A stretch of DNA of 53,563 nt, from positions 1 to 53,563 of the forward strand of contig JAGBCA010000058.1 in assembly GCA_017938205.1 (NCBI GenBank), in the 5' to 3' direction. A program made the position numbers and the translations under genes. The notes beneath the pieces were generated by a model, which did no database searches, was not told where the DNA came from, and was given only the letters and a program-made list of their open reading frames with translations. Positions 30,358 to 46,575 of the stretch are shown piece by piece. This DNA comes from Clostridia bacterium (GTDB lineage Bacteria; Bacillota; Clostridia; Oscillospirales; CAG-272). Numbering within the stretch: the first letter of the stretch is position 1; every line of letters begins with the position of its first letter.

Positions 30358-30394
30358 AAATATTATTAAGGAAAGAAACTTTTTAGGAGACCCT

Positions 30395-32344: not shown

Positions 32345-32374
32345 GCCCACCGAGCCCTCTCGGTGGGCTTTTTT
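32345..32374 (+). terminator. Strong terminator after abcF, left limit of the phage-like cassette
   Basis: GCCCACCGAG (32345-32354), 4-base loop, CTCGGTGGGC (32359-32368), T6 (32369-32374). Confidence 0.93.
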
Positions 32375-32432
32375 ATTGCATCTTGCACAAAGAAAAAGTC
32401 ACTTATCAGGTGATATTTGGAAGGCAGGTATA

Positions 32433-32461
32433 CTTACAGCGAAGCGCATTTTTGTTATACT
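32433..32461 (+). promoter_or_regulatory. Promoter of the phage-like cassette
   Basis: CTTACA at 32433-32438, 17 bases, TATACT at 32456-32461. It is the only good promoter seen ahead of terS, and all downstream genes are tightly packed. Confidence 0.6.
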
Positions 32462-32468
32462 GAGAGCA

Positions 32469-32488
32469 CGAGGGGACAAGCCCCCTCG
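32469..32488 (+). promoter_or_regulatory. 5'-terminal stem-loop of the cassette transcript
   Basis: CGAGGGG (32469-32475) and CCCCTCG (32482-32488) with a 6-base loop, starting about 8 bases after the -10 element, so the mRNA would begin with this stem. No T run follows, so it is not a terminator; a stabilising 5' hairpin fits. Confidence 0.5.
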
Positions 32489-32511
32489 AAAATGAAAGAA
32501 AGGAGACCTTC

Positions 32512-32841
32512 ATGAAAACGAGAAAGCAAGGGTATGAAAGAGATCTGCCGAGACGGCTCTATACCTTCTTTACGGGCTATGACGATGAGAAGAGCGCCCC
32601 CAGCCTTCAGAAATTCGCCAGAGCCAACGGCTTTACCACAGAGGAGCTTCTCGCCTTCCAAAAGAATGAGGACTTTGCGCGTGCCATCCGCGAATGCAGT
32701 GAAATTCGCAGGGATTACCTGATAGACAGAGCATTGACCAAGCGGTTCGACGCCTCGTTCGTCAAATATCTTCTGGACGGCGAAAGCAACAAATGTACGG
32801 AGGACTCCTCTCTTTCCGTGACGCTGGAGGTGCTCTCTTGA
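32512..32841 (+). CDS. Small terminase subunit-like protein
   Basis: A 109-residue, largely helical, charged protein directly upstream of the large terminase. FTTEELLAFQKNEDFARAIRECSEIRRDYLIDRALTKRFDASFVKYLLDGE resembles the helix-turn-helix and oligomerisation part of small terminases, including the common DxSFVKYLL ending. It would recognise the packaging start of DNA and regulate the large subunit. AAAGGAGA lies 6 bases before the ATG. Its stop overlaps the TTG start of the large terminase, so translation is coupled. Assignment rests on position and on the C-terminal motif; similarity in this family is usually weak. Confidence 0.72.
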   Translation: MKTRKQGYERDLPRRLYTFFTGYDDEKSAPSLQKFARANGFTTEELLAFQKNEDFARAIRECSEIRRDYLIDRALTKRFDASFVKYLLDGESNKCTEDSSLSVTLEVLS

Positions 32842-34202
32842 AGCTGCATCTCACGGTCACGAAAAAGCAAAAGGCCTTTATGGATGCCACCGCGACCGAG
32901 GTTCTCTTCGGCGGTGCGGCGGGTGGCGGAAAATCCTACGGCCAGCTTGTGGATGCGCTGACGGTCGCGCTCCGCTATCCCGGCTCGAAGCAGCTGATCC
33001 TCAGGCGCAGCTTTGCCGAGCTGGAAAAATCCCTCATCCGCACCTCGCTTTCTCTCTTCCCGAGAGAGATCTACCGCTTCAACGCGGCAGCCCACGTCGG
33101 CCACTTCAAAAACGGCTCCTGCCTCGACTTCGGCTATTGCGCGGCGGAGAACGATGTGTATCAGTACCAGAGCGCGGAATATGACGTGGTTCGCTTCGAC
33201 GAGCTGACGCATTTCACCGAGGCGCAGTACGTGTATCTGATCTCACGCGTACGAGGTGCAAACGGCTTCCCGAAGCAGATCAAATCCTCCACCAACCCCG
33301 GCGGCGTAGGCCACGGATGGGTGAAGGCGCGCTTCGTGGATCCTTCACCGCCCAACGTGCCCTTTACGGGCAAGGATGGCATGGCGCGCATCTTTCTCCC
33401 CTCCTTTTTAGAGGACAACCGCTTTCTCTCCGAGGGCGATCCAAACTACAAAAAGCGACTTCTCTCCCTCCCCGAGAAGGAGCAAAAGGCGCTTCTCTAC
33501 GGAGATTGGAACATCTTCGACGGGCAATACTTTTCCGAATTTTCTACGGCAAAGCACACCTGCTGCCCCTTCGAGATCCCGCACTCCTGGAGAAAATGGC
33601 GCACGATCGACTACGGCCTTGACCGCCTGGCCTGCCTATGGATCGCCGTCAGCCCCGAGGGGCGCGCCTACGTTTATCGTGAGCTTTGCGTTTCGGATCT
33701 CCCGATCGGTGATGCAGCCGCCGCCATTCTTGAGCATACGCCCAAGCACGAGGAGATCTACGCCACGCTCGCGCCGCCGGATCTCTTCAGCCGCAGCCAG
33801 GAGAGCGGAAAAAGCAAGGCAGGCCTCTTTGCCTCCTACGGCGTTCCCTTCACAAAGACCTCCAACAACCGAGAGGCCGGATGGCTCTGCGTGAAGGAGC
33901 TCTTGCGCGAAAAGGAAGGCGCCCCTGCCCTCTCCATCTTCTCCCACTGCACCGAGCTGATCCGATGCCTGCCCGCCCTGCAGATCGATAAGCACCGCCC
34001 CAGCGACTGCGCCACCGAGCCGCACGATATTACGCACGCACCGGATGCCCTGCGAGGCTTTGCGGTTTCCTTCGCACGCCCCGCGCCCACGCCCGCGGTT
34101 CGCCACGGGCAAAAATGGAGCGCCGATATGTGGGAGGATTATTTTGCCGCAAACGAGGAGGAAAAGCAATACCTAAAACGCAAATACGGAGAACCCCTAT
34201 GA
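32838..34202 (+). CDS. Large terminase subunit
   Basis: A 454-residue phage packaging ATPase/nuclease. Walker A is GGAAGGGKS (residues 25-33), Walker B is VVRFDELTH with D121 and E122, and the coupling motif SSTNPGG follows. The C-terminal RNase H-like nuclease begins at WRTIDYGLD, with further acidic positions in the C-terminal third (THAPDALRGFAV, the last nuclease Asp). The start is TTG 32838: GGAGGTG is 5 bases upstream, and it overlaps the small terminase stop by four bases. All motifs expected of an active motor and nuclease are intact, which argues against decay. Confidence 0.95.
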   Translation: MKLHLTVTKKQKAFMDATATEVLFGGAAGGGKSYGQLVDALTVALRYPGSKQLILRRSFAELEKSLIRTSLSLFPREIYRFNAAAHVGHFKNGSCLDFGYCAAENDVYQYQSAEYDVVRFDELTHFTEAQYVYLISRVRGANGFPKQIKSSTNPGGVGHGWVKARFVDPSPPNVPFTGKDGMARIFLPSFLEDNRFLSEGDPNYKKRLLSLPEKEQKALLYGDWNIFDGQYFSEFSTAKHTCCPFEIPHSWRKWRTIDYGLDRLACLWIAVSPEGRAYVYRELCVSDLPIGDAAAAILEHTPKHEEIYATLAPPDLFSRSQESGKSKAGLFASYGVPFTKTSNNREAGWLCVKELLREKEGAPALSIFSHCTELIRCLPALQIDKHRPSDCATEPHDITHAPDALRGFAVSFARPAPTPAVRHGQKWSADMWEDYFAANEEEKQYLKRKYGEPL

Positions 34203-35962
34203 CAGAAAACACACAAAAATCAAACCGCCTTGCTTATTTTTCTTCGCTGTATCAGAAAAGCAAGAGCGCGGCGGAGGAGAAGCGTACGCTATACGATCGC
34301 CATATGCAGCAATACCGCGGCAGCACGGAGATCGACGGCTCCACGCAAAAGGCACTGACCGTTCGCAACATCACCTACGAGATGATCGAAAGCCAGGTCT
34401 CCTCCCACATCCCACCCCCAAAGGTGGATCCCACAGCCTACAGTGAAAAGAAGGTGCGCCTTGCGCAATCGGTGGAGCGCCTGCTTTCCGCCGTGCGTGA
34501 AAAGCTCCCCTACGAGCAGATGAACGACCTTGACGAGCGCTATACCTACATATACGGCGGCAGCGTCTGGTTCGTGGAATGGGACAATGAATGCGGCATC
34601 GGCAATCGGATCGGCGGTGTTCGGCTGCATTGCCTTTCCCCGAAGAGCTTCATTCCCCAGCCCGGCGCACGCAGAGTGGAGGACATGGACTACTGCTTCC
34701 TCCGCTTTGAAACCACGAAGGCAGAGCTCGTACGCAAGTGGGGCGTTTCGCCCGCCTCCCTCTCGCTTGCCGAGAGAGAATGGGACAGCGATTGCTACGA
34801 GGGCGAGGAGGACGAGGGCGCAACCGTGATCCTTTGCTTCTATCGCGATGCAGACGGCAAGATCGGTGAATACGCATTTTCGGGCGAGCTTACGCTGACA
34901 GACATTCCCGATTATTATGCCAGAAAAAGAAGGATCTGCTCCGTCTGCCACAGTGAGGAGCAAAATTGTCTTTGCGAGCACCCGCACTTCACGCTCGAAA
35001 ACCAAAACGAGGAGCAGGTGGAGCTGCACCGTCTGCCCGGCGGCGTTGAGGCCTTTTCTCCCATCTCAGGGGGACAAAAAGGGATCGAGGTCCCTTATTA
35101 CACGCCACGCCGCTTTCCCATCGTGATCCGAAAGAACACCTCCTTGGAGGGCAGCCTTCTCGGTGCCTCGGATTGCGAGATCATCCGCCCGCAGCAGCAA
35201 TCGATCAATAAGATCGAATCCCGCATTTTGCAAAAGCTCTTGCGTGCGGGCGTTACCCCCGTCGTTCCCGAGGATGCGACCATCACGCTGAACAACTCGG
35301 TGTTCGGTCAGCTGATCAAGATGAAGCCGGGAGAAAGTGCGGCACAGTACGGCAAGGTGGACACCACGCCCGACATTTCGCAGGACATCGCGGAGGCCTC
35401 CCGTCTTTACGATCAGGCCAAGCGCATCCTCGGCATCTCGGATGCACTCGTCGGCATTGACACCTCCAAAAACGAATCCGGCTATGCAAGACAGCTGCAG
35501 ATCCTGCAGGCCTCGGGCCGCCTCGAATCCAAGCGTAAGATGAAATACGCCGCATATGCCGATCTGGACCGTTTGATCTTTGAGTATCACCTCTCCTTCG
35601 CGGACGAGCCGAGACAGATCTCCTACCGAGATGCCTTCGGCCGTATGCACAATGCGACCTTCAACCGCTATGATTTTATTTCCTACGACGAGACGAGCGG
35701 AAGCTTCTATTACGATGACGATTACCTCTTCTCCGTGGATCTCAACGGCGGCGTGGAGGCGCAAAGAGAGGCGCTCTGGGAGAAAAATCTGCAAAATCTC
35801 ACCGGCGGCGCGCTCGGCGACCCCTCAAAAAGCGTCACGCTTCTTCGGTATTGGCAATGCCAGGAGCGCGCGCACTATCCTTACGCACGCGAAAACGTGG
35901 AATATTTCCAAAGCGCTGTGCGCGAGGAGCTGAACGGCACGGCGCGGGAGGTGATCGAATGA
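34199..35962 (+). CDS. Portal protein with zinc-ribbon-like insertion
   Basis: A 587-residue portal protein, the dodecameric ring through which DNA enters the capsid. ALTVRNITYEMIESQVSSHIPPPKV at the N-terminus and SLEGSLLGASDCEIIRPQQQSINKIESRILQKLL plus KNESGYARQLQILQASGRLESKRKMKYAAYADLDRLIFEYH in the second half are typical of portals. A four-Cys cluster, C247-x2-C250-x6-C257-x-C259, sits between them and looks like a small metal-binding insertion. ATG 34199 overlaps the terminase stop (ATGA). It is followed by the next gene in the same overlapping style. Confidence 0.85.
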   Translation: MTENTQKSNRLAYFSSLYQKSKSAAEEKRTLYDRHMQQYRGSTEIDGSTQKALTVRNITYEMIESQVSSHIPPPKVDPTAYSEKKVRLAQSVERLLSAVREKLPYEQMNDLDERYTYIYGGSVWFVEWDNECGIGNRIGGVRLHCLSPKSFIPQPGARRVEDMDYCFLRFETTKAELVRKWGVSPASLSLAEREWDSDCYEGEEDEGATVILCFYRDADGKIGEYAFSGELTLTDIPDYYARKRRICSVCHSEEQNCLCEHPHFTLENQNEEQVELHRLPGGVEAFSPISGGQKGIEVPYYTPRRFPIVIRKNTSLEGSLLGASDCEIIRPQQQSINKIESRILQKLLRAGVTPVVPEDATITLNNSVFGQLIKMKPGESAAQYGKVDTTPDISQDIAEASRLYDQAKRILGISDALVGIDTSKNESGYARQLQILQASGRLESKRKMKYAAYADLDRLIFEYHLSFADEPRQISYRDAFGRMHNATFNRYDFISYDETSGSFYYDDDYLFSVDLNGGVEAQREALWEKNLQNLTGGALGDPSKSVTLLRYWQCQERAHYPYARENVEYFQSAVREELNGTAREVIE

Positions 35963-36615
35963 CTGCCTTTATAACGAAAAAGAAGAGAGAAAACGAGCCC
36001 GGAAGCTTCAGCGTCTGGATGCGAAAGCACGGTACGGAGTTAAAGAACGAGCTCACCCCCGACAAAGCCGCCACGATCAAGGCAAAAAGCGCACCTACGC
36101 ACGGAACGAACGCCGAGGCGCTCTTTGATAAGGGGCTTACGGGAAGCGGCTACGCCCGTTTTCTTGCAGACGAGGCAGACCGCAGCTTCAAGGCCGCGAA
36201 GCAAAACTACGATCGGGATGCAGCGAGCACGCTCGAAAAAAATCTCTCGGGCTATGCAAGGTATCTCACCTCGCACAGAGAGGCGCAGGACACCCTGCGC
36301 AAGCAGATGATCGAGCGCATCGGCAGAGGCGAAAGCTTTGACACCGAGGGAGCGTATCAGATCGCCATTGCCGCAGGTCTGACCGAGGAAAATGCCAGGG
36401 CGGCCGCCACGCTCGGCGTTGCCGCCGCAAAGGAGCGTGCCACCTCGCGCCTGCTTGAAATGATCCTCGAGCAAAGGCTGCAGGCAGCCCGTGTCACGGA
36501 ATACGCACGCAGCATGGGCTTTAACGACGAGGAGTTGGAGCGCTTTGCCGCATACGCCAAGCAGATCAATTCCACAAAGGTCCCCTCTCAGCTCCCCGGG
36601 GATCTCTTCGACTAA
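35959..36615 (+). CDS. Unknown phage-module protein, helical, 218 residues
   Basis: Not recognised. The protein is strongly helical and Ala/Glu/Arg-rich (SGYARYLTSHREAQDTLRKQ, GLTEENARAAATLGVAAAKERA, LEMILEQRLQAARVTEYAR), without membrane segments or signal peptide. Between portal and scaffold, phages often carry a head-assembly or internal protein, which is the likely role here. GGGAGGTG lies 5 bases before ATG 35959 and the start overlaps the portal stop (ATGA). Confidence 0.65.
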   Translation: MTAFITKKKRENEPGSFSVWMRKHGTELKNELTPDKAATIKAKSAPTHGTNAEALFDKGLTGSGYARFLADEADRSFKAAKQNYDRDAASTLEKNLSGYARYLTSHREAQDTLRKQMIERIGRGESFDTEGAYQIAIAAGLTEENARAAATLGVAAAKERATSRLLEMILEQRLQAARVTEYARSMGFNDEELERFAAYAKQINSTKVPSQLPGDLFD

Positions 36616-36639
36616 CACAAAAGAAAGAAAGGAAACGCT

Positions 36640-36789
36640 ATGAACAAGGAAAAATTCTCTCCCTACGCCACCAATAAGGGTGGCAGGATCGAAGCCCCGA
36701 GAAAGGTAAGCGAGGGCGAACCCCGCGCAACCAAGACCGTAGGGGACGATCTGCGCATCAAAAGAAACGCGAAAGGAAAGAAGGGCTGA
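36640..36789 (+). CDS. Small basic phage-module protein, 49 residues
   Basis: ATG 36640 to TGA 36789 encodes 49 residues, beginning MNKEKFSPYATNKGG and ending with a Lys/Arg-rich tail (RIKRNAKGKKG). AAAGGAAA lies about 6 bases before the start, and the next gene begins 2 bases after the stop, so it is tightly embedded in the operon. Net charge is strongly positive, so it could bind nucleic acid or the acidic scaffold-like protein encoded next. No family was recognised. Confidence 0.65.
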   Translation: MNKEKFSPYATNKGGRIEAPRKVSEGEPRATKTVGDDLRIKRNAKGKKG

Positions 36790-36791
36790 TC

Positions 36792-37268
36792 ATGGAAGAG
36801 CTTCTTGAAAACGAGACGGCGGCGGAGCCTGCGCCCCTGCCTGCGGAGGAGGAGACCGAGACCGTCCGCGAGGATACGCCGCAAGAGCCTGCAGAGAACG
36901 CGGACGGCGCTGTCGAGACAGAGGAGGAGGCGGTGGATTACGCCGCCCTCGCCGCAGAGGATCTCGCCGCGCTGAAGGCTGAGTTCCCCGCCCTGAGGCA
37001 GCTTACCTCTCTCGCCGCACTCTCCGACCCCGTGCGTTACGCCGAGCTTCGCGAGATGGGACTTTCCCCCAAGGAGGCCTATCTGGCAACGGGCGGTACG
37101 GCAAGAAGAGCGAGCGATAACCGCGCGCATCTTATGAGCGCCGTGCCGCGCCAGGGCGCTCTTGCAGCCAATCTTCCCACAGCTGAGCAAATGGCAGAGG
37201 CTCGCCGCCTTTTTTCGAATCTCAGCGATGCGCAAATTCATCGTTTATACCAAAAAGTTACCAATTAA
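36792..37268 (+). CDS. Scaffold-like acidic protein
   Basis: A 158-residue protein with an extremely Glu/Ala/Pro-rich N-terminal half (residues 1-60, about one Glu in three) and a helical C-terminal half (AAEDLAALKAEFPALRQLTSLAALSDPVRYAELREMGLSPKEAYLATGG). It lies directly upstream of the major capsid gene. This position and the acidic, disordered plus helical composition match phage scaffolding proteins that guide capsid assembly. The C-terminal RRLFSNLSDAQIHRLYQKV may contact the capsid protein. Assignment is by context and composition, since scaffolds have little sequence conservation. Confidence 0.55.
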   Translation: MEELLENETAAEPAPLPAEEETETVREDTPQEPAENADGAVETEEEAVDYAALAAEDLAALKAEFPALRQLTSLAALSDPVRYAELREMGLSPKEAYLATGGTARRASDNRAHLMSAVPRQGALAANLPTAEQMAEARRLFSNLSDAQIHRLYQKVTN

Positions 37269-37288
37269 GGAAAGGAAAAACCTGATAA

Positions 37289-38323
37289 ATGTCTACTATT
37301 ATTTACTCCAAGTCAGCCGGCAACAACAACGGCGCCATCGGAAAGCTCGAAACGCCGATCAAGATGGTGATCGAGCACGAGAGCGATATTCTCACCAAAA
37401 AGGGAGGCATCCGCGATTGGCTCTTCAACGTTGAGACCAGCGCGCGCTTCGGCGAGACCATCGTTGGCCAGAACGAATTTGATATTTTCGCCGCAACTCC
37501 CGAGGGTGATGCCGCTCCGCGTGACACCGTGGCGGAGACCTATCGCAAGTTTATCGAGCACATCCAGTTTATGAAGGAGTTCGTCATCACCGCAGAGATG
37601 ATGGAGGATGCAGGCTACGGCGTTGCCGCCGATGCCAAGAGACGTGCCGAAAACTTCACACGCGCCTACTACAAGACCATGCACAAGATCTGCGAATACG
37701 CCTTGGCAAGCGGCACGTATGCCAGCGGTAATTTTTCCGGCGCTACACTGGATCTCACTGCGCCTGACAGCCTTCCCCTCTTCTATTCCGCACACAAGTA
37801 CGGAACGGCGGCGGCAACGCAGTCCAATTTCTACTACGGTGATATCTTCAGCGGCGGTACCGCAGGCTTTGAGGCGGCACTCTCCGAGCTTTCCGTTAAG
37901 CTCCGCAATATGAAGGATGAAAACGGCGAGGCTCTCGGCTACACCGCCGACACCCTGATCCTGCCCGGCAACCGTCCCGCGGCTGAGATGATCGCAAAGA
38001 AGGTCTGCGGCTCGGAGGGTGCACTCGGCAACGGCTACAACGATATCAACCTGCAGTTCGGCAATTGGAACATCGTGGTCCTTCCCGGCTGGCAGACCTC
38101 CGACGATCGCGTGATGATCATGTCGAGCGAGGCCAACAAAAACCTCTCGGGCAATATGTTCTTCAACCGCGTTCCGCTTTCGGTTTCCAACTGGGTGGAT
38201 CACCACACCGGCAACTATCTTTGGGCAGGTCGCTGCCGCTTCGGCGTTGGCTTTGGCAGCTATAAGCACATTCTGCTGGCGGTGGATTCCTCGACCGCAG
38301 TGCAGAACGCAACCGCGCTCTGA
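37289..38323 (+). CDS. Major capsid protein
   Basis: A 344-residue protein with the features of a tailed-phage major head subunit: KLETPIKMVIEHESDILTKKGGIRDWLFNV near the N-terminus, a helix-rich ASGTYASG segment, then SVKLRNMKDENGEALGYTADTLILPGNRPAAEMIAKKV and FFNRVPLSVSNWVDHHTGNYLWAGRCRFGVGF. The order terminase, portal, scaffold, this gene supports it, as does the moderate length. I judge it nearest to the Mu gpT-like or generic HK97-fold group by pattern only. AAAGGAAAAA lies about 8 bases before the ATG. Confidence 0.85.
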   Translation: MSTIIYSKSAGNNNGAIGKLETPIKMVIEHESDILTKKGGIRDWLFNVETSARFGETIVGQNEFDIFAATPEGDAAPRDTVAETYRKFIEHIQFMKEFVITAEMMEDAGYGVAADAKRRAENFTRAYYKTMHKICEYALASGTYASGNFSGATLDLTAPDSLPLFYSAHKYGTAAATQSNFYYGDIFSGGTAGFEAALSELSVKLRNMKDENGEALGYTADTLILPGNRPAAEMIAKKVCGSEGALGNGYNDINLQFGNWNIVVLPGWQTSDDRVMIMSSEANKNLSGNMFFNRVPLSVSNWVDHHTGNYLWAGRCRFGVGFGSYKHILLAVDSSTAVQNATAL

Positions 38324-38328
38324 TCCCA

Positions 38329-39171
38329 ATGACCTTTACACAATTAACTGCGGAGGTGGCGGCGCTCGGCTTTGAAAGCGAGATCGAAAACCGACCTGCC
38401 CTTCTCTTTTGTGCCAATCGCGCGCTGAGAAGCATCGCCGCACTCTCCCCCTCCTTTCGCAGGGTCACGCTCTTTCAGCGCGTGATCCTGCCCGCCTCGC
38501 ATCTTGAACAGGTTAGCTATACCCCTACGGAGGAAATTCACATTCCTCTGAAGGGCGCAGCCTTCAGCTTTAAATTTTCCGGTGCGGGCACGGTCACCCT
38601 GAAGGAACGCCACAGAGTGACCCCCTTCTCGTTCAATACCCCATATACCGAGTTCAGGCGTTTTCTCCTGGATCTTGAGGGAGAGCTCGTGCTTTCGGGG
38701 CACACCCCCTTCAAGCTGATCGACCTCGTTTGCTACACGCACGCGTGCGGTCTTGCGGAGACGGACATTCCCATACTGCACCCCTTCCGTTCCTATGTGA
38801 TCGGTGACCTCGTACGGGATTTCTTCGGCTTTTCGGGGCTTCCCACGGATGAAAACGGAAAGACGCTGGCAGGCTCTTATTTTCGGGACGACACTCTCTT
38901 CGTTCCCAGCGATTACGAGGGCGAGATCCATCTGATCTATCGGCGCGTACCGAACGAGATCTATTCCGATGCGCCAAACGCCGACATCGACCTCGCTCCC
39001 TCGCTCGTGCATCTTTTGCCCCTGCTCACCGCCGCCTATCTCTGGCTGGACGATGACAGCGCCAAGGCGCAGTTCTATATGCAAATGTATATGGAGGGGA
39101 TCCGCGACGTTCGTATCAGCCGCCCCACGAGCCAGGACACGGAGATCAAGGACACGCACCACTGGGCGTAA
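38329..39171 (+). CDS. Head-tail connector or adaptor protein
   Basis: A 280-residue protein following the capsid gene. ALLFCANRALRSIAALSPSFRR and the late DIDLAPSLVHLLPLLTAAYLWLDDDSAKAQFYMQMYMEGIRD resemble the helical part of podovirus-type head-completion proteins (P22 gp4-like). The middle is beta-rich. There is no good Shine-Dalgarno site in the 5-base gap to the capsid gene, so translation probably depends on coupling to it. The family assignment is inferred from position and the C-terminal segment. Confidence 0.6.
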   Translation: MTFTQLTAEVAALGFESEIENRPALLFCANRALRSIAALSPSFRRVTLFQRVILPASHLEQVSYTPTEEIHIPLKGAAFSFKFSGAGTVTLKERHRVTPFSFNTPYTEFRRFLLDLEGELVLSGHTPFKLIDLVCYTHACGLAETDIPILHPFRSYVIGDLVRDFFGFSGLPTDENGKTLAGSYFRDDTLFVPSDYEGEIHLIYRRVPNEIYSDAPNADIDLAPSLVHLLPLLTAAYLWLDDDSAKAQFYMQMYMEGIRDVRISRPTSQDTEIKDTHHWA

Positions 39172-39180
39172 AGGAGGAGC

Positions 39181-41895
39181 ATGAAAAACACGACCAATCT
39201 GATTAAAAACCAAAGCCAATACAACCGCCATTATCACAATATGCGCGGCGTGGACTTTACGGGAGACGGCAGCAACATTGAAAGCGACCGCTTTGCCTAT
39301 CTTGAAAATATGTACCGCGACTACGACGGTGAGGGCGCCGGCATCACCGAAAGCATCCCCGGCTTTCGCAAGCTGTGCGCTCTCGGCGCACCGATCTACG
39401 GTATCTTCTCTCAAACCACCACGGCAGGGCGCTATATCCTCGTGCACGCGGGCTACAACCTTTACCGCTTTGCGCTGGAGGACAGAGATGAATTGAAGGC
39501 GCCTCTCGCACCGATCGGAACGCTTGCGCCGCGTGAAAGCGCCGCCTTCTGTCACGGAAGCTCGATCTATCTTTTAGACGGATACAACCTGCATCGCGTA
39601 GACGAAAAAGGAAAAATGCTCTCCATTACGGGTTATAAGCAAAAAGAAGTTTACATTCCGACCACCTTTTACAACGGAGAACCGTTTGAGCAGAGAAATC
39701 TGCTCTCCGTCGGCTATAAAGAAATTTACAGCCTTGAAAATCCGTTGCGCCTGACCTACACATCCTCCGGCCTCTATTTTGAGGTCGAGAACGAGAGCGA
39801 TCTCACCTGCCGCTTGGCAGGGTGCGGAAGATGCACGGATGCGGTGATCTACGTTCCGCAAAGCGTTACGATCGGCGGCGCGACCTACACCGTTGCCACC
39901 GTGGGAAGCAATGCCTTTTTAAACAACATATCGATCCGTAAGATCGTGCTCCCTCGCGGAGTAACGCGGATCGGAAGCCACGCCTTCAAGGGCTGCTCGG
40001 GTCTGAAGACCGTTGCACTCGCTCCCGGGCTGACCGAGATCGGCACAGGCGCCTTTTCCGGTGCCTCCTCGCTCTCCTCGGTCTACCTGCATACGGGGCT
40101 CAAGGTGCTGGCAAGCGATGCATTCAGCGACTGCTCGGCCCTTTCCGCCATCCATTTGGACGGTGCAAAAGAGGATCTTGAGGACAGCATCCGCGAGGCA
40201 CTGCTCGCGACCGCCTCCATCGTTTATAACTCGCAGTTCAAGGAGCGACTTCTGCATCTTCCCCTGCACGAGCCGACCGAGTCCATTGCGGATTTTCGCA
40301 TCGGAGACGTCGTGGTTCCCTTTACCATGGTCAAGGACGGAGCCTTCATCACCGCATTGCAGGTCACGCTCTCGGATTATACCACCGCCATCAGCAAGGA
40401 GGCTGTGATCAGCGGAGAAATGTTCGACAACATCGGCTATGCAAGCTCGGTCGGCACGGACTTCTTGTTTGAAAACAAGGACTACACGGACGGCAGCGTT
40501 CGCGCGATCTTCGGCTGTACCGTTTGCGAGGTGTTTGACGGGCGCGTTTTCCTCTCGGGCAATCCCGATCTTCCAAACACCGTTTTTTATTCGGCGAGAG
40601 ACAATACGGGCTGCATGAACCCCACTTATTTCGGCAGTCTGAATTACTTCAACGACGGTATTGCCGGCTTTCCCGTGAGATCCTTGCTTGCCGCGGGTGA
40701 TTCTCTTGCCGTTTTCAAAAGCGGCGACGACGGCGGCGGCAGCATCTATTATCACGTGCCGCAGGCAACGGACGATTCTCTCCTTCCGAAGATCTATCCC
40801 GTCAGCTACGTGCATTCCGGCATCTGTGCCACGGCAGGCTCGCTCTCCTTCTACGACGATCCCGTTTTTGTTTGCGAGGAGGGGCTTTGCGCGCTGGATA
40901 AGAAAAATCTCGCACTGGAACGAAGCGTGATCTGCCGCTCGCACACGGTAAATACACGGCTTCTTTCCGAGGACATGAGCCGCATACGCCTCGCAAAATG
41001 GCGAAATTATCTCGTTTTGCTTGCAGGCGAGAATATGTATCTTGCCGATGCCCATCAGACATACACGCACCACACAGGAGGCTTTGCCTATGAATGGTAC
41101 TATCTGACCGGCATCGGCACCTACGAGGATGACCGACCCGTGTATCGCTTTGCCTCCGAGGAAAAGGACGGCTATATGCTTCTCAAGGAGCATCAAGACG
41201 AGCCCGTGGAGAATGAAACGGTTTACAGCATCACAAGCGGCGAGGAAACGACCCATTACGTTATCCGAAACGATACGCTCTATCTCGTTTATCCTACAGA
41301 GGAGAGATGCGGCGGCCGCTTCTGCCGTGCAAAAAGCGTTCTCGGCCTGGACGAATTTCTCTTCTTCGGAACGGAGAACGGCGATCTCTGCCTCTTCAAC
41401 AACGACAAGCGCGGCGTTCCTCCCGAGCAGCTGCGCATGAGCGAGGATTTTGATGAAGAGGAATACCGCTTGCGCAACGGGCGGCGCATCCACTCGGACT
41501 TCTACGATTTTGACCACCACGCACCGCGCTACGCCTTGGCAACCAAGCGAGATTGCTGCGAGATCCCGCATCTGACGAAGAACACCGTCAAGGGCTCTCT
41601 TACGATCAAGTGCCGCGGCTACACCGCATCCGCCTTGCTTTTAGAGGTGGGAACAGACCGCTCCGGATACCGTGAGGGTGTGACGCTTCCCGGCTCCACC
41701 TTTGGCTTCGATTCTCTGGATTTCACGGCCATGACGCTGGACAACTCCCCCTATTTCACGCTTGCCTTCAAGGAAAAGGAGAAAAACTGGATCGAAAAGC
41801 AGATCGCCATGTATACAGACGCCTTTCGCGGTCCCTTTGGCATTTACAGCGTAAGCTACCGCTATACGGTGCAGGGCGGAATCAAGAACCGCTAA
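39181..41895 (+). CDS. Tail-hub/DNA-stabilisation-like protein with embedded BspA-type leucine-rich repeats
   Basis: A 904-residue protein, the largest of the cassette. The N-terminal and central parts (FAYLENMYRDYDGEGAGITESIPG, YILVHAGYNLYRF, GSSIYLLDGYNLHRV, DGRVFLSGNPDLPNTVFYSARDN, GDSLAVFKSGDDGGGSIYYHV) have the strand-turn repeats of a beta-propeller tail hub like P22 gp10. Residues about 221-333 contain three or four 23-residue LRR_5 repeats with the pattern I/L-x-x-V-x-L-P-x-G-V-x-x-I-x-x-x-A-F-x-G-C-S, as in BspA surface proteins. The repeats are fully in frame and flanked by cysteines. The C-terminus ends in a membrane-free beta domain. AAAGGAGGA lies 3 to 9 bases before the ATG. Confidence 0.62.
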   Translation: MKNTTNLIKNQSQYNRHYHNMRGVDFTGDGSNIESDRFAYLENMYRDYDGEGAGITESIPGFRKLCALGAPIYGIFSQTTTAGRYILVHAGYNLYRFALEDRDELKAPLAPIGTLAPRESAAFCHGSSIYLLDGYNLHRVDEKGKMLSITGYKQKEVYIPTTFYNGEPFEQRNLLSVGYKEIYSLENPLRLTYTSSGLYFEVENESDLTCRLAGCGRCTDAVIYVPQSVTIGGATYTVATVGSNAFLNNISIRKIVLPRGVTRIGSHAFKGCSGLKTVALAPGLTEIGTGAFSGASSLSSVYLHTGLKVLASDAFSDCSALSAIHLDGAKEDLEDSIREALLATASIVYNSQFKERLLHLPLHEPTESIADFRIGDVVVPFTMVKDGAFITALQVTLSDYTTAISKEAVISGEMFDNIGYASSVGTDFLFENKDYTDGSVRAIFGCTVCEVFDGRVFLSGNPDLPNTVFYSARDNTGCMNPTYFGSLNYFNDGIAGFPVRSLLAAGDSLAVFKSGDDGGGSIYYHVPQATDDSLLPKIYPVSYVHSGICATAGSLSFYDDPVFVCEEGLCALDKKNLALERSVICRSHTVNTRLLSEDMSRIRLAKWRNYLVLLAGENMYLADAHQTYTHHTGGFAYEWYYLTGIGTYEDDRPVYRFASEEKDGYMLLKEHQDEPVENETVYSITSGEETTHYVIRNDTLYLVYPTEERCGGRFCRAKSVLGLDEFLFFGTENGDLCLFNNDKRGVPPEQLRMSEDFDEEEYRLRNGRRIHSDFYDFDHHAPRYALATKRDCCEIPHLTKNTVKGSLTIKCRGYTASALLLEVGTDRSGYREGVTLPGSTFGFDSLDFTAMTLDNSPYFTLAFKEKEKNWIEKQIAMYTDAFRGPFGIYSVSYRYTVQGGIKNR

Positions 41896-41916
41896 AATTC
41901 GAAACGGAGATATACC

Positions 41917-42360
41917 ATGAATACCAAACCCATTTTAGAAAGCGAATATGCGCCTCTGCGCATATCCTCGCTTCCCTCCCGCCCCACCGCCTCCTCTGCC
42001 TTCGGCGGCAGGGGCTATACCGCAACCCAGCTCAAGGAGGCCTTTGATCGGCTTCCCATGCTTCTGATCAATCGCTTCAATTCCCTGCTCGCGGATATTG
42101 ACCGTCAAGGCACGGGCTCACTCGCGGATTCCATCCTCACGGGGCTGGAGAGCGGGCATACGCTCGCGAGATTTTTTGAGGACGTGCGCAGCGGAACGCT
42201 TTCCACCTATCTGAGCGTTGGAGATCAGTCGCTTTTTAAGCGGCTGACCGAAATGGCAGAAACGCTTAACACGCTGGTTCTTCTGATGGGAGATGCATAC
42301 GACGGCGGAAGTCGCTTCCACGTTGATTGCGGCCATCCCGCAGACAGAGCCGAACAATGA
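41917..42360 (+). CDS. Unknown phage-module protein, 147 residues
   Basis: Not recognised. The first 40 residues are Ser/Pro/Ala-rich (EYAPLRISSLPSRPTASSAFGGRGYTATQ) and probably flexible; the rest is helical (LKEAFDRLPMLLINRFNSLLADIDRQG, SLFKRLTEMAETLNTLVLLMG). No signal peptide or membrane helix. CGGAG lies about 9 bases before the ATG. Located between the tail-hub-like gene and the receptor-binding-type gene, it may be a tail or baseplate component. Confidence 0.6.
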   Translation: MNTKPILESEYAPLRISSLPSRPTASSAFGGRGYTATQLKEAFDRLPMLLINRFNSLLADIDRQGTGSLADSILTGLESGHTLARFFEDVRSGTLSTYLSVGDQSLFKRLTEMAETLNTLVLLMGDAYDGGSRFHVDCGHPADRAEQ

Positions 42361-42372
42361 TCCGGAGGTCTT

Positions 42373-42852
42373 ATGTCTAAAATCATTCAACATCTCAGAG
42401 CCGACCGCGAGGGCTGGGCTCTTCACGATATCGTTCCCATGGACGGCGAGCTTGCCCTCCTTCGTACAGAGGATGGCGGCACGCTGATCAAGATCGGAGA
42501 CGGTGAGCATCCGTTTTCCGCCCTCGCCTCTCTTACGGGAGAGGTGGTCAACGGCTCGTCGGATACGCATCTTCTGCGCCACGGCGAGGATCTGCGCTTT
42601 GATACGCTCGAGGCGCTTGCCCTCTCTCTGCCCGATGTGATCCGCGAGGACTATTACGCCGCTTTGAGCTTTGACTCACCGAGCGATACCCCCACGGCGC
42701 TTTCTTACCCGGAAACACCGAGGATCTATTTTACGGGTGATGATGTATTGGAGGGCGTTTTCATCCCGGACATCGGCAAGCATTATACCGTCTTCCTTTG
42801 GTACGACGGAAAAATGCAGGGGCTTGCAAGGGGGGTTACGCTTGATTCTTAA
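42373..42852 (+). CDS. Tail-fibre-type protein with Mtd-like N-terminal motif
   Basis: A 159-residue protein whose residues 1-60 carry the motif of phage fibre N-termini: LRADREGWALHDIVPMDGELALLRTEDGGTLIKIGDGEHPFSAL, that is, a short strand, GE-L-A, then a K-I-G-D-G turn. This is shared with the N-terminal attachment region of major-tropism-determinant and hyaluronidase-like fibre proteins. The C-terminal part is beta-rich with aromatic residues (FIPDIGKHYTVFLWYDGKMQG). A Shine-Dalgarno GGAGG precedes the ATG, 12 bases after the previous stop. The last codons overlap the next gene. Confidence 0.65.
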   Translation: MSKIIQHLRADREGWALHDIVPMDGELALLRTEDGGTLIKIGDGEHPFSALASLTGEVVNGSSDTHLLRHGEDLRFDTLEALALSLPDVIREDYYAALSFDSPSDTPTALSYPETPRIYFTGDDVLEGVFIPDIGKHYTVFLWYDGKMQGLARGVTLDS

Positions 42853-44005
42853 CAAGATGGCCGCTCTGTGGGCGCAATCCCCGACGCCTACGACAAAATC
42901 GCTCTCCAAGGGCTACGGCGTGGATCTTACGCACGCCAGGGGCATTTGCAAGCTTGGCGTGCGCGGCTCATCCTCCGGTTGGTACCCGACCGGAGAGCCC
43001 TATAAGATCTCGTTTTTCGGGGATCTCACGGAGGACGGCCGATACGTCATCCCTCTGCACTGCCACGGCACGAATACGCTCGGCGGCGAAACCTTTGCGG
43101 CCGCCGTATTGGCGGCGGCAGAAAGCAGCAGCCTCGTCACCGCCTCGCTCGAAGGAAGCATTCTTACCTTCAGCGCCACAGGCACCGTGCCGCTCTTTCC
43201 CACCGGATTTCTGCGCGGCGCGTATTCGGAGGTCTTTACGATCATGTTCACCCTTTGCGCACCCGAAAACACGGGGAGTACGTTAAGCAGCGGTATAACG
43301 CTTACCTACGACTACGGCTCACAAATCGTTTCGTACAGCGGCACCTATACGGGTGAGACCGTGCAGATCCTGACGAGCACCAACGCCTCTCGCCAGCTGA
43401 AAGGGCTTGCCCTTTCGAGCACGGGCGGACTGCCGCGAAAGATCGATATTTCCACCTTCGGTATCTTTCGCGGCACGGTGGGCACGGAGGCGTTTCAGCC
43501 GTATTGGGGCGAAACCGTTCCCTTTTATCTTTCCGAGCCTCTGCGTACCTACTATACCACCAGAGACGTTGCCTATCCTCTTCAGGGATATGCGGAGCGT
43601 ATGGTCAAGTCCACGCCGTTCAAGCCCGATACCGCCATCCCGGCGGATATCAGCAACGCATATCCGATCTATCGCCTGCCGATGCCCGAGGAGCTGCACG
43701 GGCAAAGCGTGCTGATGGATCGCTTCAGTCATACTGCAAGAGAAAGCACGCTGGTCGCCGAGGAGCTTCGCTATATGCAGAGCGCGGAAAAGGATGCCAT
43801 CTTCGTTTGCGTTCCCACCGCGTACAACACGGCAGAAAAGTTTCTGAATTTCTTTCACGCGATGAATGCGAGTCTCACAACCGAGCGCAACGAGCCGCTC
43901 ATTGAGCGTTTTTCTCCCATCGTCCTGCCAACGAGAAAAGGGCGCAATCACATTGATTTCCAAACCTTCGTTACGCCCTCCACCATCGATTTCACTTATT
44001 TATAA
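42842..44005 (+). CDS. Unknown beta-rich phage-module protein, possible receptor-binding protein
   Basis: A 387-residue protein starting at TTG 42842, because AAGGGGGG lies 5 bases upstream; the next in-frame ATG at 42857 is 20 bases from that site. It overlaps the stop of the fibre-type gene. The sequence is Thr/Ser/Gly-rich and strand-forming (SSSLVTASLEGSILTFSATGTVPLF, TLTYDYGSQIVSYSGTYTGETVQIL), as in distal tail proteins, and has no signal peptide. The C-terminal half is more mixed (MDRFSHTARESTLVAEELRYMQSAEKDAIFVCVP). Pairing with a fibre N-terminal protein suggests host recognition, but no family was recognised. Confidence 0.6.
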   Translation: MILNKMAALWAQSPTPTTKSLSKGYGVDLTHARGICKLGVRGSSSGWYPTGEPYKISFFGDLTEDGRYVIPLHCHGTNTLGGETFAAAVLAAAESSSLVTASLEGSILTFSATGTVPLFPTGFLRGAYSEVFTIMFTLCAPENTGSTLSSGITLTYDYGSQIVSYSGTYTGETVQILTSTNASRQLKGLALSSTGGLPRKIDISTFGIFRGTVGTEAFQPYWGETVPFYLSEPLRTYYTTRDVAYPLQGYAERMVKSTPFKPDTAIPADISNAYPIYRLPMPEELHGQSVLMDRFSHTARESTLVAEELRYMQSAEKDAIFVCVPTAYNTAEKFLNFFHAMNASLTTERNEPLIERFSPIVLPTRKGRNHIDFQTFVTPSTIDFTYL

Positions 44006-44016
44006 AAGGAGATTAT

Positions 44017-44250
44017 ATGTACGCAAAAAGAATCGATGCGGGCAGGATCCATTGCCCGGACCGCCCGTATATTATCGAAAACGGAAGGATCTACACCAAT
44101 CCCTCCGAGGCGCAGTTGCGCCTTGCAGGCTACAAGCCGCTGGTGGAGCGCCCTTGCCCAAGGGAGATCGAAAACGCCTATACGATCTACTACGAGGAGG
44201 ATGAGGCGCATATTTATCTCTGCTACAAAGGAGAGGAGGAAGCGAAATGA
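44017..44250 (+). CDS. Small unknown phage-module protein, 77 residues
   Basis: Encodes MYAKRIDAGRIHCPD and then IIENGRIYTNPSEAQLRLAGYKPLVER, a compact alpha/beta pattern with many charged residues. AAAGGAG is 7 to 13 bases before the ATG, 11 bases after the previous gene. The last four bases overlap the next gene (ATGA). I recall similar ENGRIYTNPxxxQLRxAGY sequences in gut phage genomes, but cannot name a function. Confidence 0.6.
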   Translation: MYAKRIDAGRIHCPDRPYIIENGRIYTNPSEAQLRLAGYKPLVERPCPREIENAYTIYYEEDEAHIYLCYKGEEEAK

Positions 44251-44639
44251 AGGAATTTACATTTCGGCTCACAAGCGGCCGCGCATTGCTCTGCCAAGGC
44301 GACAGCGTTCCCTGCGACCGCGCTCATTTTCGCATTGAGAGCAAGAGCGGCGGCACTCTCGTTCTGGCGGGCAAGCAAATCCCCTTGACGGCAGAGGGAG
44401 CAACGGTGCGCGCAGAGGAGCTGCACGTCGGCGTGCACACGCCCGCCTTCTTCGTGGACGGAGAGCGCTACGAGGCACCGCCCGTTTCCATCGGCGCGGG
44501 ATACCTCTTCTTTCTCCCCCCAACGCACGCGCAGCTTTGCCGCGCAGAGGAGCGCCTCGGCGCTCTGGAGGCGGCGCATACGGAGCTTTCCGGGCGGCTT
44601 TGCCGCATAGAGGCACGTATGCAGGATACTATTTTTTAA
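44247..44639 (+). CDS. Unknown phage-module protein, 130 residues
   Basis: Not recognised. The first 90 residues are beta-rich (FTFRLTSGRALLCQGDSVPCDRAHFRIESKSGGTLVLAGKQIPL, AFFVDGERYEAPPVSIGAGYLFFLP). The last 35 are a predicted coiled coil (EERLGALEAAHTELSGRLCRIEARM). No membrane helix. Its start overlaps the previous stop (ATGA), and GGAGAGGAGGAAG precedes it. A beta-domain plus coiled coil suggests a small trimeric fibre or an assembly factor. Confidence 0.6.
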   Translation: MKEFTFRLTSGRALLCQGDSVPCDRAHFRIESKSGGTLVLAGKQIPLTAEGATVRAEELHVGVHTPAFFVDGERYEAPPVSIGAGYLFFLPPTHAQLCRAEERLGALEAAHTELSGRLCRIEARMQDTIF

Positions 44640-44652
44640 GAAAGGAAAACGC

Positions 44653-45327
44653 ATGAAAAAGTTTTTATTTACGCTTTGTCTTTGCCTTATCCTCGCATTC
44701 GCCTTTTCCACGGTTTCCCTGGCCGCGCAGAACGGCGAGAGCGAGACGCAAAGTGAAAACGGCGAAGAAAGCACACAGGCCAGCACCGAGCCATCACCCG
44801 ACGGAGAAAAGGAAGCCCCCGCGCCGACGGAGGAGAACCCCTTTCTCACTCTCTACGAGCTTCTCGGCGCACATCTTCCCGAGCTCTTCTCCGCGCTCTC
44901 GCTTCTCGGCGCGTGCATCATCGGCTTTTGCTACAAAAAGGGCCTGCTCCCCATTTTGAGGGACGGGATCGGAGCGATCGGATCCGCAACGAAAGAATGG
45001 GGCGAAAATGCCGAGGCCTACGCCAAGGATGCCAAAAAAATATGCGAAGATGCAAACAATTCTATACAATTCGTTTCATCCTGCGTAGAAAAAATGCACG
45101 CGTCCCTCACTTGTGTTGAGGAAAGAATTGCCGCGCTCGGCGATCAAAAGACCGAAACTGAAATACTCCGAGAGCTGATGCGCGGGCAGGTGGATATGCT
45201 CTACGATATTTTTCTCTGCTCATCACTGCCGCAATTCGAAAAGGATCGCGTTGGCAAGCGCGTGGAAGAAATGAAGCGCCTTCTGGAGGCAACGAGGGAC
45301 GGAGGAGAAGGCCATGCAACCGAATAA
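44653..45327 (+). CDS. Secreted or membrane-anchored phage-module protein with signal peptide
   Basis: The 224 residues start with a clear signal peptide (MKKFLFTLCLCLILAFAFS, cleavage near SLAAQ). A Glu/Ser/Thr/Pro-rich linker (residues 27-60) follows, then a hydrophobic helix (ELFSALSLLGACIIGFCYKKG, about 76-96), and a C-terminal helical domain with six or so cysteines. It could be a holin-like or anchor protein, since the topology puts the linker outside the cell. AAAGGAAAA lies about 8 bases before the ATG. Its 3' end overlaps the next gene by 14 bases. Confidence 0.62.
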   Translation: MKKFLFTLCLCLILAFAFSTVSLAAQNGESETQSENGEESTQASTEPSPDGEKEAPAPTEENPFLTLYELLGAHLPELFSALSLLGACIIGFCYKKGLLPILRDGIGAIGSATKEWGENAEAYAKDAKKICEDANNSIQFVSSCVEKMHASLTCVEERIAALGDQKTETEILRELMRGQVDMLYDIFLCSSLPQFEKDRVGKRVEEMKRLLEATRDGGEGHATE

Positions 45328-45685
45328 GCCGCTTTTCGCGCGATTGCTTCTCGCCTTGGGCTATGCCTTCTCGGTTGGCCTGCCGCTTGCCGCCACGCTC
45401 TCCTGCTTTCCGCTCTGGAGAGCGCGGGGCGGTGCATCCGTGCTTGCAGGCGGCACGCTTCTGCTCGTCGCACTTTGCCTTCTGCCGCTCTGGCGCAGCC
45501 TGCGGGAATATTTAAAAAGCCCCGCCGTATGGAGCCTTTGGCTCATTGCGCTTCTCTTTTTTCTTCTCGTCGGAAGCATCGTTTCCGAGATGCGTATGAT
45601 CTGCCTGTTCGGTCTGATCGGTAATCTGATCGGTGCCGTATGCTTCCGTCTTGCACGAAAGAGAGGGAACGGTCATGGAGCGTGA
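45314..45685 (+). CDS. Membrane protein, phage module, four helices (holin-like size)
   Basis: A 123-residue membrane protein with about four hydrophobic helices (LLLALGYAFSVGLPLAATLSCF, VLAGGTLLLVALCLLPLW, AVWSLWLIALLFFLLVGSIV, ICLFGLIGNLIGAVCF) and short Arg-rich loops. Size and topology are compatible with a holin, but no holin family was recognised. GGAGGAGAAGG lies upstream of the ATG, and the start lies in the 3' end of the secreted-protein gene, so the two are translationally coupled. Confidence 0.6.
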   Translation: MQPNKPLFARLLLALGYAFSVGLPLAATLSCFPLWRARGGASVLAGGTLLLVALCLLPLWRSLREYLKSPAVWSLWLIALLFFLLVGSIVSEMRMICLFGLIGNLIGAVCFRLARKRGNGHGA

Positions 45686-46520
45686 ATCCGAGCGTCTTCT
45701 GGCCTCCTCCCTTGCCTCGCTTTCCAAGGGACGGCAAAGGCTTTTTGCTCATATCGGTCTTTGGGTTGCGGCGCTTTCGCTGCTCGTTGCCGCGCTCGTC
45801 ACCTTCACGGAGATCTCCCTGCTCTCACTCTCCCTGCAAAGCCTGACGCTTACCGTGGCGGTATACGCCGCGGTGACCGTCGTGATGTATATTTCCCTTG
45901 AGGAGGAGGGCGAGCTTGCGGGGCGCACGGAAAGTGCCTATAAAGAAGCGGAAAACGCTCTCACGGCCACGTCGGCACGCATCACCGCCGTTCATTACGC
46001 CCCCTTAGAGGCCTTTTGCCGACTCTATACCAAGGAGGAGCTTGCCGAGCGGCGCGCACGGCTCTTGCTTACCTACGGAATATCAGACGAGGCGCAGCAG
46101 GAGCTCCCCGCGGCCGTGCAAAGGCGGATATGCCGCCTGCGCCCTCTGCAGCTCAATGCATCCATGCTTCTCGGAAAGCCTGCGAAGGCCGCCGATTCTC
46201 CGCTGTGCAATCCCGATCGGCGGCGCAGGACCCGCTTACTCACCAGGCTGACGCCCTCGCTCCTTTGCATGACCTTCGGCATCGGCATTGCGATCGGCGC
46301 ACGCGATGCGCTCACCGTTTCCGCGATCCTGGAAGGGATCTTCAAGCTATCCGCGCTTCTGATCGTGGGGCTTCGGGGCTACGTGCAGGGCTATCTCTTC
46401 GTCAGCGAGGCGGAGATCCCCTTCATCCGTGCCAAAACACGGCTTCTTGAGCGTTTTCTCTGCGAGACGTCCGAGGAAAAATCCCAATCGTCTCCTATTG
46501 ACTTTGCCTGCTCGGCGTGA
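45675..46520 (+). CDS. Membrane protein, phage module, last gene
   Basis: A 281-residue protein. An N-terminal hydrophobic pair (about 25-72: AHIGLWVAALSLLVAALV, LTLTVAVYAAVTVVMYISL) is followed by a long soluble, Arg/Leu-rich helical domain (about 75-195), then two more helices (SLLCMTFGIGIAIGARDALT, LSALLIVGLRGYVQGYLFV). It starts at ATG 45675, overlapping the previous gene by 11 bases. It is the last gene before the terminator. No family was recognised; a lysis or secretion role is conceivable from context. Confidence 0.6.
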   Translation: MERESERLLASSLASLSKGRQRLFAHIGLWVAALSLLVAALVTFTEISLLSLSLQSLTLTVAVYAAVTVVMYISLEEEGELAGRTESAYKEAENALTATSARITAVHYAPLEAFCRLYTKEELAERRARLLLTYGISDEAQQELPAAVQRRICRLRPLQLNASMLLGKPAKAADSPLCNPDRRRRTRLLTRLTPSLLCMTFGIGIAIGARDALTVSAILEGIFKLSALLIVGLRGYVQGYLFVSEAEIPFIRAKTRLLERFLCETSEEKSQSSPIDFACSA

Positions 46521-46526
46521 TACAAT
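46498..46526 (+). promoter_or_regulatory. Promoter of cysK at the end of the phage-like cassette
   Basis: TTGACT at 46498-46503, 17 bases, TACAAT at 46521-46526. It overlaps the last codons of the last cassette gene and lies upstream of the terminator hairpin, so cysK transcripts starting here would carry that hairpin in their leader. Confidence 0.6.
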
Positions 46527-46543
46527 ATTGAGCAGCAGGGTCT

Positions 46544-46575
46544 GGCGTGTGGCATGATCATGCCACACGCCTTTT
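46544..46575 (+). terminator. Palindromic terminator, right end of the phage-like cassette and leader of cysK
   Basis: Arms GGCGTGTGGCAT (46544-46555) and ATGCCACACGCC (46560-46571) around GATC form a perfect 28-base palindrome, followed by TTTTATTTT. Strong intrinsic terminator. Confidence 0.9.

Follow-up and report, generated by a model that had tools for sequence, protein, structure and literature searches.

A probable gene-transfer-agent-like particle operon in gut Clostridia whose promoter also precedes dispersed replication initiator and MuF-barnase/barstar genes

Few gene transfer agents (GTAs) or GTA-like elements are known outside the Alphaproteobacteria, and the first podovirus-like one was reported in 2026, according to the available passages of a recent report (PMC12946183). 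The same passages place GTA-like packaging also in Christensenellaceae and name four metagenome-assembled genomes (MAGs), from Oscillospiraceae and Ruminococcaceae, as searched for candidate operons (PMC12946183). By description, and not by comparison of sequences, the closest published system to the locus studied here is FpGTA of Faecalibacterium (PMC12946183). It was the only GTA-like element of Clostridia among the matches listed from the open-access literature, a search that left subscription journals mostly outside. None of the open-access titles and abstracts listed describes the present locus. FpGTA spans 10.5 kb with ten open reading frames (ORFs); the locus described here spans 14 kb and has 17 genes (PMC12946183). 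It lies at positions 32512–46520 of a contig from a Clostridia bacterium (Oscillospirales; CAG-272; assembly GCA_017938205.1, contig JAGBCA010000058.1), and the window is the whole stretch analysed, 53,563 nucleotides.

We consider it probable that these genes are a domesticated, vertically inherited and host-regulated operon for a short-tailed particle that works like a GTA. Phage-derived head, packaging and tail genes lie in the host chromosome, no genes for integration or autonomous replication are recognised among them, inheritance is vertical, selection maintains the genes, and the phylogeny of the large terminase TerL stands apart from its nearest true phages. The particle would belong to the bacterium and not to a virus, because the locus is inherited like chromosomal genes and, in many species, its promoter is shared with scattered genes.

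All 17 ORFs run on the + strand, and many overlap or lie a few bases apart. The gap from the host gene abcF to the first gene is 194 bases, and the gap from the last gene to the host gene cysK is 84. A bipartite promoter, TTGGAA-N8-TACTTAC-N18-TATACT (32417..32461, +), was found by pattern match and is conserved in relatives. A terminator behind abcF (32345..32368, +) marks the left boundary in the terminator scan, and a 12-pair stem with a T tail (46544..46571, +) marks the right end. Promoter-like sites in the scan were no more frequent than chance (3 found, 5.0 expected), so the operon promoter is credible because of its conservation across species. Terminator-like sites were frequent (26 found, 17.2 expected), and both flanking terminators are credible because their stems, of 12 and 10 pairs, are among the longest. 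An initial annotation of this DNA had described 17 co-directional genes with one promoter, a terminator at each side and host genes outside, and the ORFs and the scan bear this out. Where it put the promoter there is a promoter-like site at 32433–32461, and its right terminator coincides with 46544–46571. It had also described the locus as free of integration and replication genes. Profile scans of all genes but g5, a number of which matched no family, recognised no integrase or recombinase, replication or lysogeny gene in the locus.

The arrangement is conserved in relatives. The sister genome G061, of the nearest species, has abcF, the 17 genes, cysK and two more shared genes, d1 and d2, in identical arrangement. 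The ABC-F ATPase gene abcF (30392..32317, +; ORF call) is 91% identical and at the same position in G061, and it lies left of the locus in further congeners too; cysK (46605..47537, +; ORF call) is 79% identical and in the same place. terL is single-copy in the source genome. It was found in 29 of 35 other congeners, without internal stops and usually once. The capsid gene occurs in 51 of 60 genus genomes and rpoB in 49 of the same 60, and among high-quality genomes the counts are 17 and 18 of 19 (own genome counted in each); the prevalence of the locus in these incomplete genomes is therefore close to that of a universal gene. The near-relative MAGs come mostly from the hindgut of sheep, deer, goat and yak. 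Gene order within the operon, read from tblastn, ends g15-g16-g17 in 21 of 30 loci; the other nine comprise five cut by contig ends, one permuted, one class-B (phage-type) copy and two without recognisable last genes. A DinG-like helicase gene lies right of the locus in 19 congeners (12 in one set, 7 in another). In several of them core genes come next, among them that for glycyl-tRNA synthetase, with rnpA-yidD-yidC-mnmE farther along (names by sequence reading). In a second clade the locus lies between other host flanks. The comparison of gene order and flanks that the initial annotation had proposed thus finds a compact locus in mostly shared host contexts, not only full prophages.

The DinG-like helicase was considered as an eighteenth gene and rejected. 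Of 13 genomes searched, 10 have it, and in the five of these where the position of the operon is known (G000, G061, G063, G060 and G005) it lies on another contig than the operon or about 70 kb away. Two loci depart from the usual order. In G005 the operon is circularly permuted, so that g5 to g16 precede terL and portal. In G015 (contig C30) cysK follows shortly after g11 and g12–g17 were not found, possibly a partial loss.

The locus follows the phylogeny of the host. A tree built from terL, portal, terS and g17 agrees with the rpoB tree in 17 of 30 splits over 33 genomes; 13 strong splits are common to both, with no strong conflict, and shuffled labels gave a mean of 0.24 shared splits and a maximum of 3. 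Single-gene trees of terL, the tail hub gene and g17 likewise show no strong conflict with rpoB. Distances correlate with those of rpoB for terL (0.81), terS (0.87), g17 (0.87), portal (0.70) and hub (0.64). Across species whose rpoB identity falls to about 70%, the frames of terL, portal, mcp, g16 and g17 stay open, contig cuts aside. The ratio of nonsynonymous to synonymous substitution rates (dN/dS), calculated for up to ten close pairs, is 0.06–0.19 for terL, 0.07–0.17 for portal and 0.03–0.11 for mcp. It is below 0.5 for all 11 genes measured, the highest value being 0.481 (terS), and the terminase, portal and capsid genes are under stronger constraint than the tail genes. The intact frames claimed by the initial annotation are confirmed, and dN/dS, its proposed check, proves well below 1, neither neutral nor accompanied by frameshifts. 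Its preference over a recent prophage is upheld by gene order, vertical signal, prevalence and selection.

The promoter is itself a conserved and dispersed feature. Its form in clade 1 is TTGGAA-N8-TACTTAC-N18-TATAAT. The pattern ACTTAC-N17-20-TANNNT lies upstream of terL in 25 of 26 clade-1 loci, 19 of which have TTGG 8–12 bases before TACTTAC; neither pattern occurs in any of the 4,583 background windows taken from these contigs. In G064, the one locus that departs from the pattern, CTTACA and TATAAT can be made out by eye. Across the whole genus the bipartite pattern was found at 34 sites in 21 of 69 genomes (reversed pattern, 0); the family's other genera, with 285 genomes, gave 3 sites (reversed pattern, 1). 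By our sorting, 16 of the 34 sites precede the particle operon. The 18 others lie before phage-type replication initiators (10), MuF-barnase and/or barstar genes (3), and DUF1385 or pseudouridine-synthase genes (3), or at contig ends (2). Six of the initiators are DnaD-like (G074:C84, G022:C7, G022:C63, G031:C10, G062:C27 and G062:C43; E down to 2e-41). The other four (G068:C21, G068:C27, G013:C22 and G081:C45) are weaker, O-like or helix-turn-helix proteins; their matches to replication-initiation profiles have E values from 3e-7 to 7e-6, and for some of them profiles of no known function score equally well or better. The DnaD-like family has 13 matches in the genus, of which 11 lie directly behind the TACTTAC motif, all in one subclade of the locus tree. 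Some copies are shortened, since three of the 13 contain internal stops (G031:C13, G062:C27 and G012:C22). G074 carries an identical promoter sequence at two places (C10 and C84) with an initiator behind only one; the pair may reflect mobile promoter-initiator cassettes or an assembly break.

The MuF-barnase genes occur in 7 of 69 genus genomes, as a fragment in G076 and as a C-terminal piece in G018. The TACTTAC promoter precedes them in G450, G068, G023 (twice, without TTGGAA) and G018; the motif was not found at the copies in G027, G030 and G076. A promoter shared by operon and MuF-barnase was looked for in G027 and not found, and in G030 only the MuF-barnase side was readable for this comparison. 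The barnase part is homologous to PDB 1a2p (E 6e-29). The minor head protein profile phrog_115 matches the G450 protein at E 2e-7 and the G068 protein at 0.009, and the Pfam Mu_F match is below its cut-off (E 2.7e-4). Barstar was recognised by Pfam in G068 and the source genome and by likeness elsewhere; G018 has barstar beside its barnase piece, and no barstar ORF was recognised in the stretch fetched from G450. The search of the source genome found nothing behind the motif except the operon and a barstar gene, the latter promoter without TTGGAA and with only a 28-codon frame before barstar. A MuF domain fused to a toxin, with an immunity gene, is found in the dispersed module of some congeners and not in the operon. 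G023 contig C9 carries two MuF-barnase/barstar modules in tandem, and a TACTTAC promoter stands before each; in this genome (86% complete) neither terL nor capsid was found.

Relatives of a phage type exist within the genus. A second capsid gene, with 43–54% identity, is present in five congeners (G013, G059, G080, G011 and G073). As class B we compared the fetched copies G059_C28, G080_C55, G011_C6 and G013_C18 and the 41.8-kb IMG/VR contig IMGVR_UViG_3300029705_000297. Where covered, their order is terL-portal-g4-g5-scaffold-capsid-adaptor-hub-g16-g17, as in the compact locus. The four copies that cover the region carry a polyvalent protein of 2,429–3,352 amino acids between g4 and g5. Two of these giant proteins were scanned: one matches MuF_C below cut-off, and the other LPD3 and LPD38, with PBECR3 below cut-off. 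Beyond this, genes for a serine recombinase, a DnaC-like protein and a reverse transcriptase were identified on the IMG/VR contig. The promoter motif was not found in three class-B copies. In quick trees, with some unlabelled rows inside the groups, compact loci and phage-type copies separate with SH-like approximate likelihood-ratio support of 96 (terL) and 92 (portal). Because order is kept, the tree groups are separate and phage parts are missing, the compact locus looks like the product of a single old domestication in which the parts for mobility and replication and the giant protein were lost. On the IMG/VR contig (2552–3724 and neighbours) the reverse transcriptase lies near two similar proteins that resemble targets of a diversity-generating retroelement.

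An order-wide search of 394 genomes found related portals in 31 and related capsids in 31, five being congeners (own genome counted). A scan of genome contigs for terL gave no Faecalibacterium record among the 53 loci listed. In another genus of the same family, G120 contig C37 (13.6 kb, too short to judge) carries a compact relative of the operon. One genus of another family in the order (G041, G089 and G108) has a distant portal-capsid locus, maybe another domesticated element, with similar surrounding gene sizes in G041 and G089.

The genes of the operon, all on the + strand, begin with a small terminase-like gene, terS (32512..32841; phrog_3064, E 2e-4; PF16677 below cut-off). terL (32838..34202; phrog_979, E 1e-42; PF03237) has intact ATPase and nuclease motifs, and their residues are fixed in 44–45 of the 45 rows covering them; the initial annotation had also noted intact terminase motifs. 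It is followed by portal (34199..35962; phrog_156, E 3e-31). Gene g4 (35959..36615) is a short counterpart of longer phage-type genes, 25–30% identical to class-B ORFs of 427–1202 amino acids, and g5 (36640..36789) encodes a conserved protein of 49 amino acids with tblastn matches in many relatives. The scaffold-like label given to the acidic protein at 36792..37268 stands by position, composition and conservation in relatives; its best profile match reaches only E 0.02. The major capsid protein gene, mcp (37289..38323), matches phrog_371 at E 0.0018, weak alone; a 38-row capsid profile (A3) matches the PDB proteins 8rkc and 8rkx, annotated 'Mu GpT domain-containing', at E 5e-4, and we take Mu GpT to be a capsid protein. 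The capsid structure predicted from 12 sequences was too poor for use (mean predicted local distance difference test score 48.7). A head-tail adaptor of SU10 type (38329..39171) matches PF24175 above cut-off (E 8e-7). Profile matches thus agree with the terminase, portal, capsid and connector genes named earlier, those for capsid and TerS being weak.

The tail region begins with a hub-like protein of 904 amino acids (39181..41895), called a hub by position. It matches PF13306 (LRR_5, E 5e-19), and BspA-type leucine-rich repeats sit inside it. The hub evolves fast (median amino-acid p-distance 0.68), and it is short in three related genomes (437–606 amino acids, against a median of 897). Next come g10 (41917..42360), a tail-region protein of conserved position; the tail-fibre-like g11 (42373..42852; weak match to phrog_6049, E 0.0017); and g12 (42842..44005), variable, presumed receptor-binding and 42% identical in the nearest species. 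To g13 (44017..44250) and g14 (44247..44639), supported by ORF calls and relatives, no role is assigned. Hydropathy gives g15 (44653..45327) a signal-peptide-like N terminus and one membrane segment; class-B copies have a gene resembling it at the matching position, by eye. The four-segment membrane protein g16 (45314..45685), holin-like by topology only, is 31–40% identical in class B, and the last gene, g17 (45675..46520), also a membrane protein by hydropathy, is 22–23% identical. The membrane proteins g15–g17 have no recognised family in the profile scans, which is also true of g4, g10 and g12–g14, and the absence of lysis genes stated by the initial annotation is accordingly tentative.

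At this locus an ancestral temperate podovirus-like phage would have lost the means of integration, the giant polyvalent protein and the replication module it once had. The host would have kept the terminase, portal, scaffold, capsid, connector, tail and end-of-operon membrane genes. In one large clade the dedicated promoter would turn the operon on, in several species co-expressed with scattered phage-type replication initiators. TerL would then fill heads with host DNA, which the short tail would deliver to related cells, with some route of cell lysis presumed. The particle is possibly coupled to local replication and to toxin loading. A tentative extension, which we hold to be doubtful, is a host-run phage programme distributed over the chromosome: one promoter family would run the operon, local run-off replication from the scattered initiators, and a capsid-loaded MuF-barnase with chromosomal immunity. 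If so, certain host regions would be enriched in the particles, and the particles of some species would bring along an RNase that spares only barstar-bearing kin. The initiator cassettes may also be selfish, raising their own share of the packaged DNA. The source genome speaks against this extension, as no DnaD-like gene and no initiator behind the motif were found in it.

Several results weigh against a GTA-like operon. The mcp and portal trees each have one strong split in conflict with rpoB. Correlation with rpoB distances is missing for the capsid (r −0.13) and weak for scaffold (0.47) and adaptor (0.53). Recombination or uneven rates therefore exist, and some lineages may have fast or replaced capsids. 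G028 lacks terL and capsid and G071 lacks capsid, both genomes being at least 95% complete. Outside clade 1 the promoter motif was not seen upstream of any class-A locus (19 loci; for G079, cut by a contig end, the test is unfair), and no endolysin was recognised in the locus. The source genome is a 2.36-Mb MAG, 84% complete, and all genomes compared are MAGs. The dN/dS values cover 11 of 17 genes, without g5 and g10–g14, and in several pairs dS approaches or exceeds saturation. An active phage would also show purifying selection; the argument therefore relies on the vertical signal. Finally, the case is made from sequence, which would also suit an inert, slowly decaying relic, an explanation we regard as highly improbable given the dN/dS values, the frames open down to about 70% rpoB identity and the conserved promoter.

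The main rival is a domesticated killing particle that carries MuF-linked barnase or other cargo into competitors in the manner of PBSX-like or MuF-toxin systems, with DNA transfer incidental or absent. MuF-barnase and/or barstar genes behind the TACTTAC promoter in G068, G450, G023, G018 and the source genome point that way, as do the barnase and minor-head-protein homology of the dispersed module and the fast evolution of the hub and tip genes. We nevertheless judge it unlikely: MuF-barnase is present in only the seven genomes, two of them with partial copies, and a toxin needle would not need terminase, portal and capsid to be more constrained than the tail. The pairing 'GTA-like or toxin-like' offered by the initial annotation remains the right one, because the promoter-sharing genes include both replication functions and a capsid-type RNase. 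A still-mobile prophage or satellite at preferred sites, only looking vertical, would fit the phage origin of the operon, the phage-type copies in the genus and the permuted order in G005. It is quite improbable in view of the agreement with rpoB without strong conflict and the core-gene prevalence; moreover, no recombinase or replication gene is recognised in the locus, and the two intergenic flanks share no direct repeat longer than 7 bases (10 if the comparison takes in 600 bases on either side). An ordinary prophage was rejected, as no recombinase, replication or lysogeny genes were recognised with the structural genes, unlike the IMG/VR contig with its recombinase and replication genes. 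Capsid-forming phage satellites have an integrase, replication or regulatory genes of their own, and no tail genes; this candidate was also rejected, with no integrase recognised and tail genes present.

The preferred GTA-like operon can be set beside several described systems. The RcGTA cluster measures about 14 kb, like the locus here, and differs from it in host and tail type, while PBSX of Bacillus subtilis differs from it in tail type and lysis genes. The likeness to RcGTA and the rhodogtaviriformids is that most genes are vertically inherited and that TerL and capsid form a clade distinct from phages, as far as the available text states (PMC9662315). PBSX is likewise a GTA-like element of Gram-positive bacteria, described in the passages available as killing and not injecting its DNA (PMC12946183). 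The Bartonella GTA is associated, in the accessible text, with run-off replication, and here operon and phage-type initiators share a promoter (PMC2697382). The initiators here, in contrast, are several and scattered, amplification from them is conjectural, and the likeness is one of arrangement (PMC2697382). MuF polymorphic toxins combine a MuF-type head domain, a C-terminal toxin and an immunity gene, as in the dispersed module (PMC5576092). They are reported, in the part of the source available, as exclusive to temperate phages and prophages, whereas here the module is unlinked to phage genes and stands behind the promoter of the operon (PMC5576092).

In FpGTA a second operon holds the genes for tail fibre, receptor binding and lysis, and its particles have been demonstrated, whereas the present particle is predicted from its genes (PMC12946183). 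A promoter shared with replication initiators is not mentioned in the passages available (PMC12946183). New in the present lineage is that the operon promoter also precedes dispersed replication initiators and MuF-barnase/barstar genes. With this promoter, the coordination of a particle with replication and cargo becomes a testable question. This further lineage of gut Clostridia has phage-type relatives within the genus, so that the steps of domestication become readable, namely which parts were given up, which were retained and in what way their control was altered.

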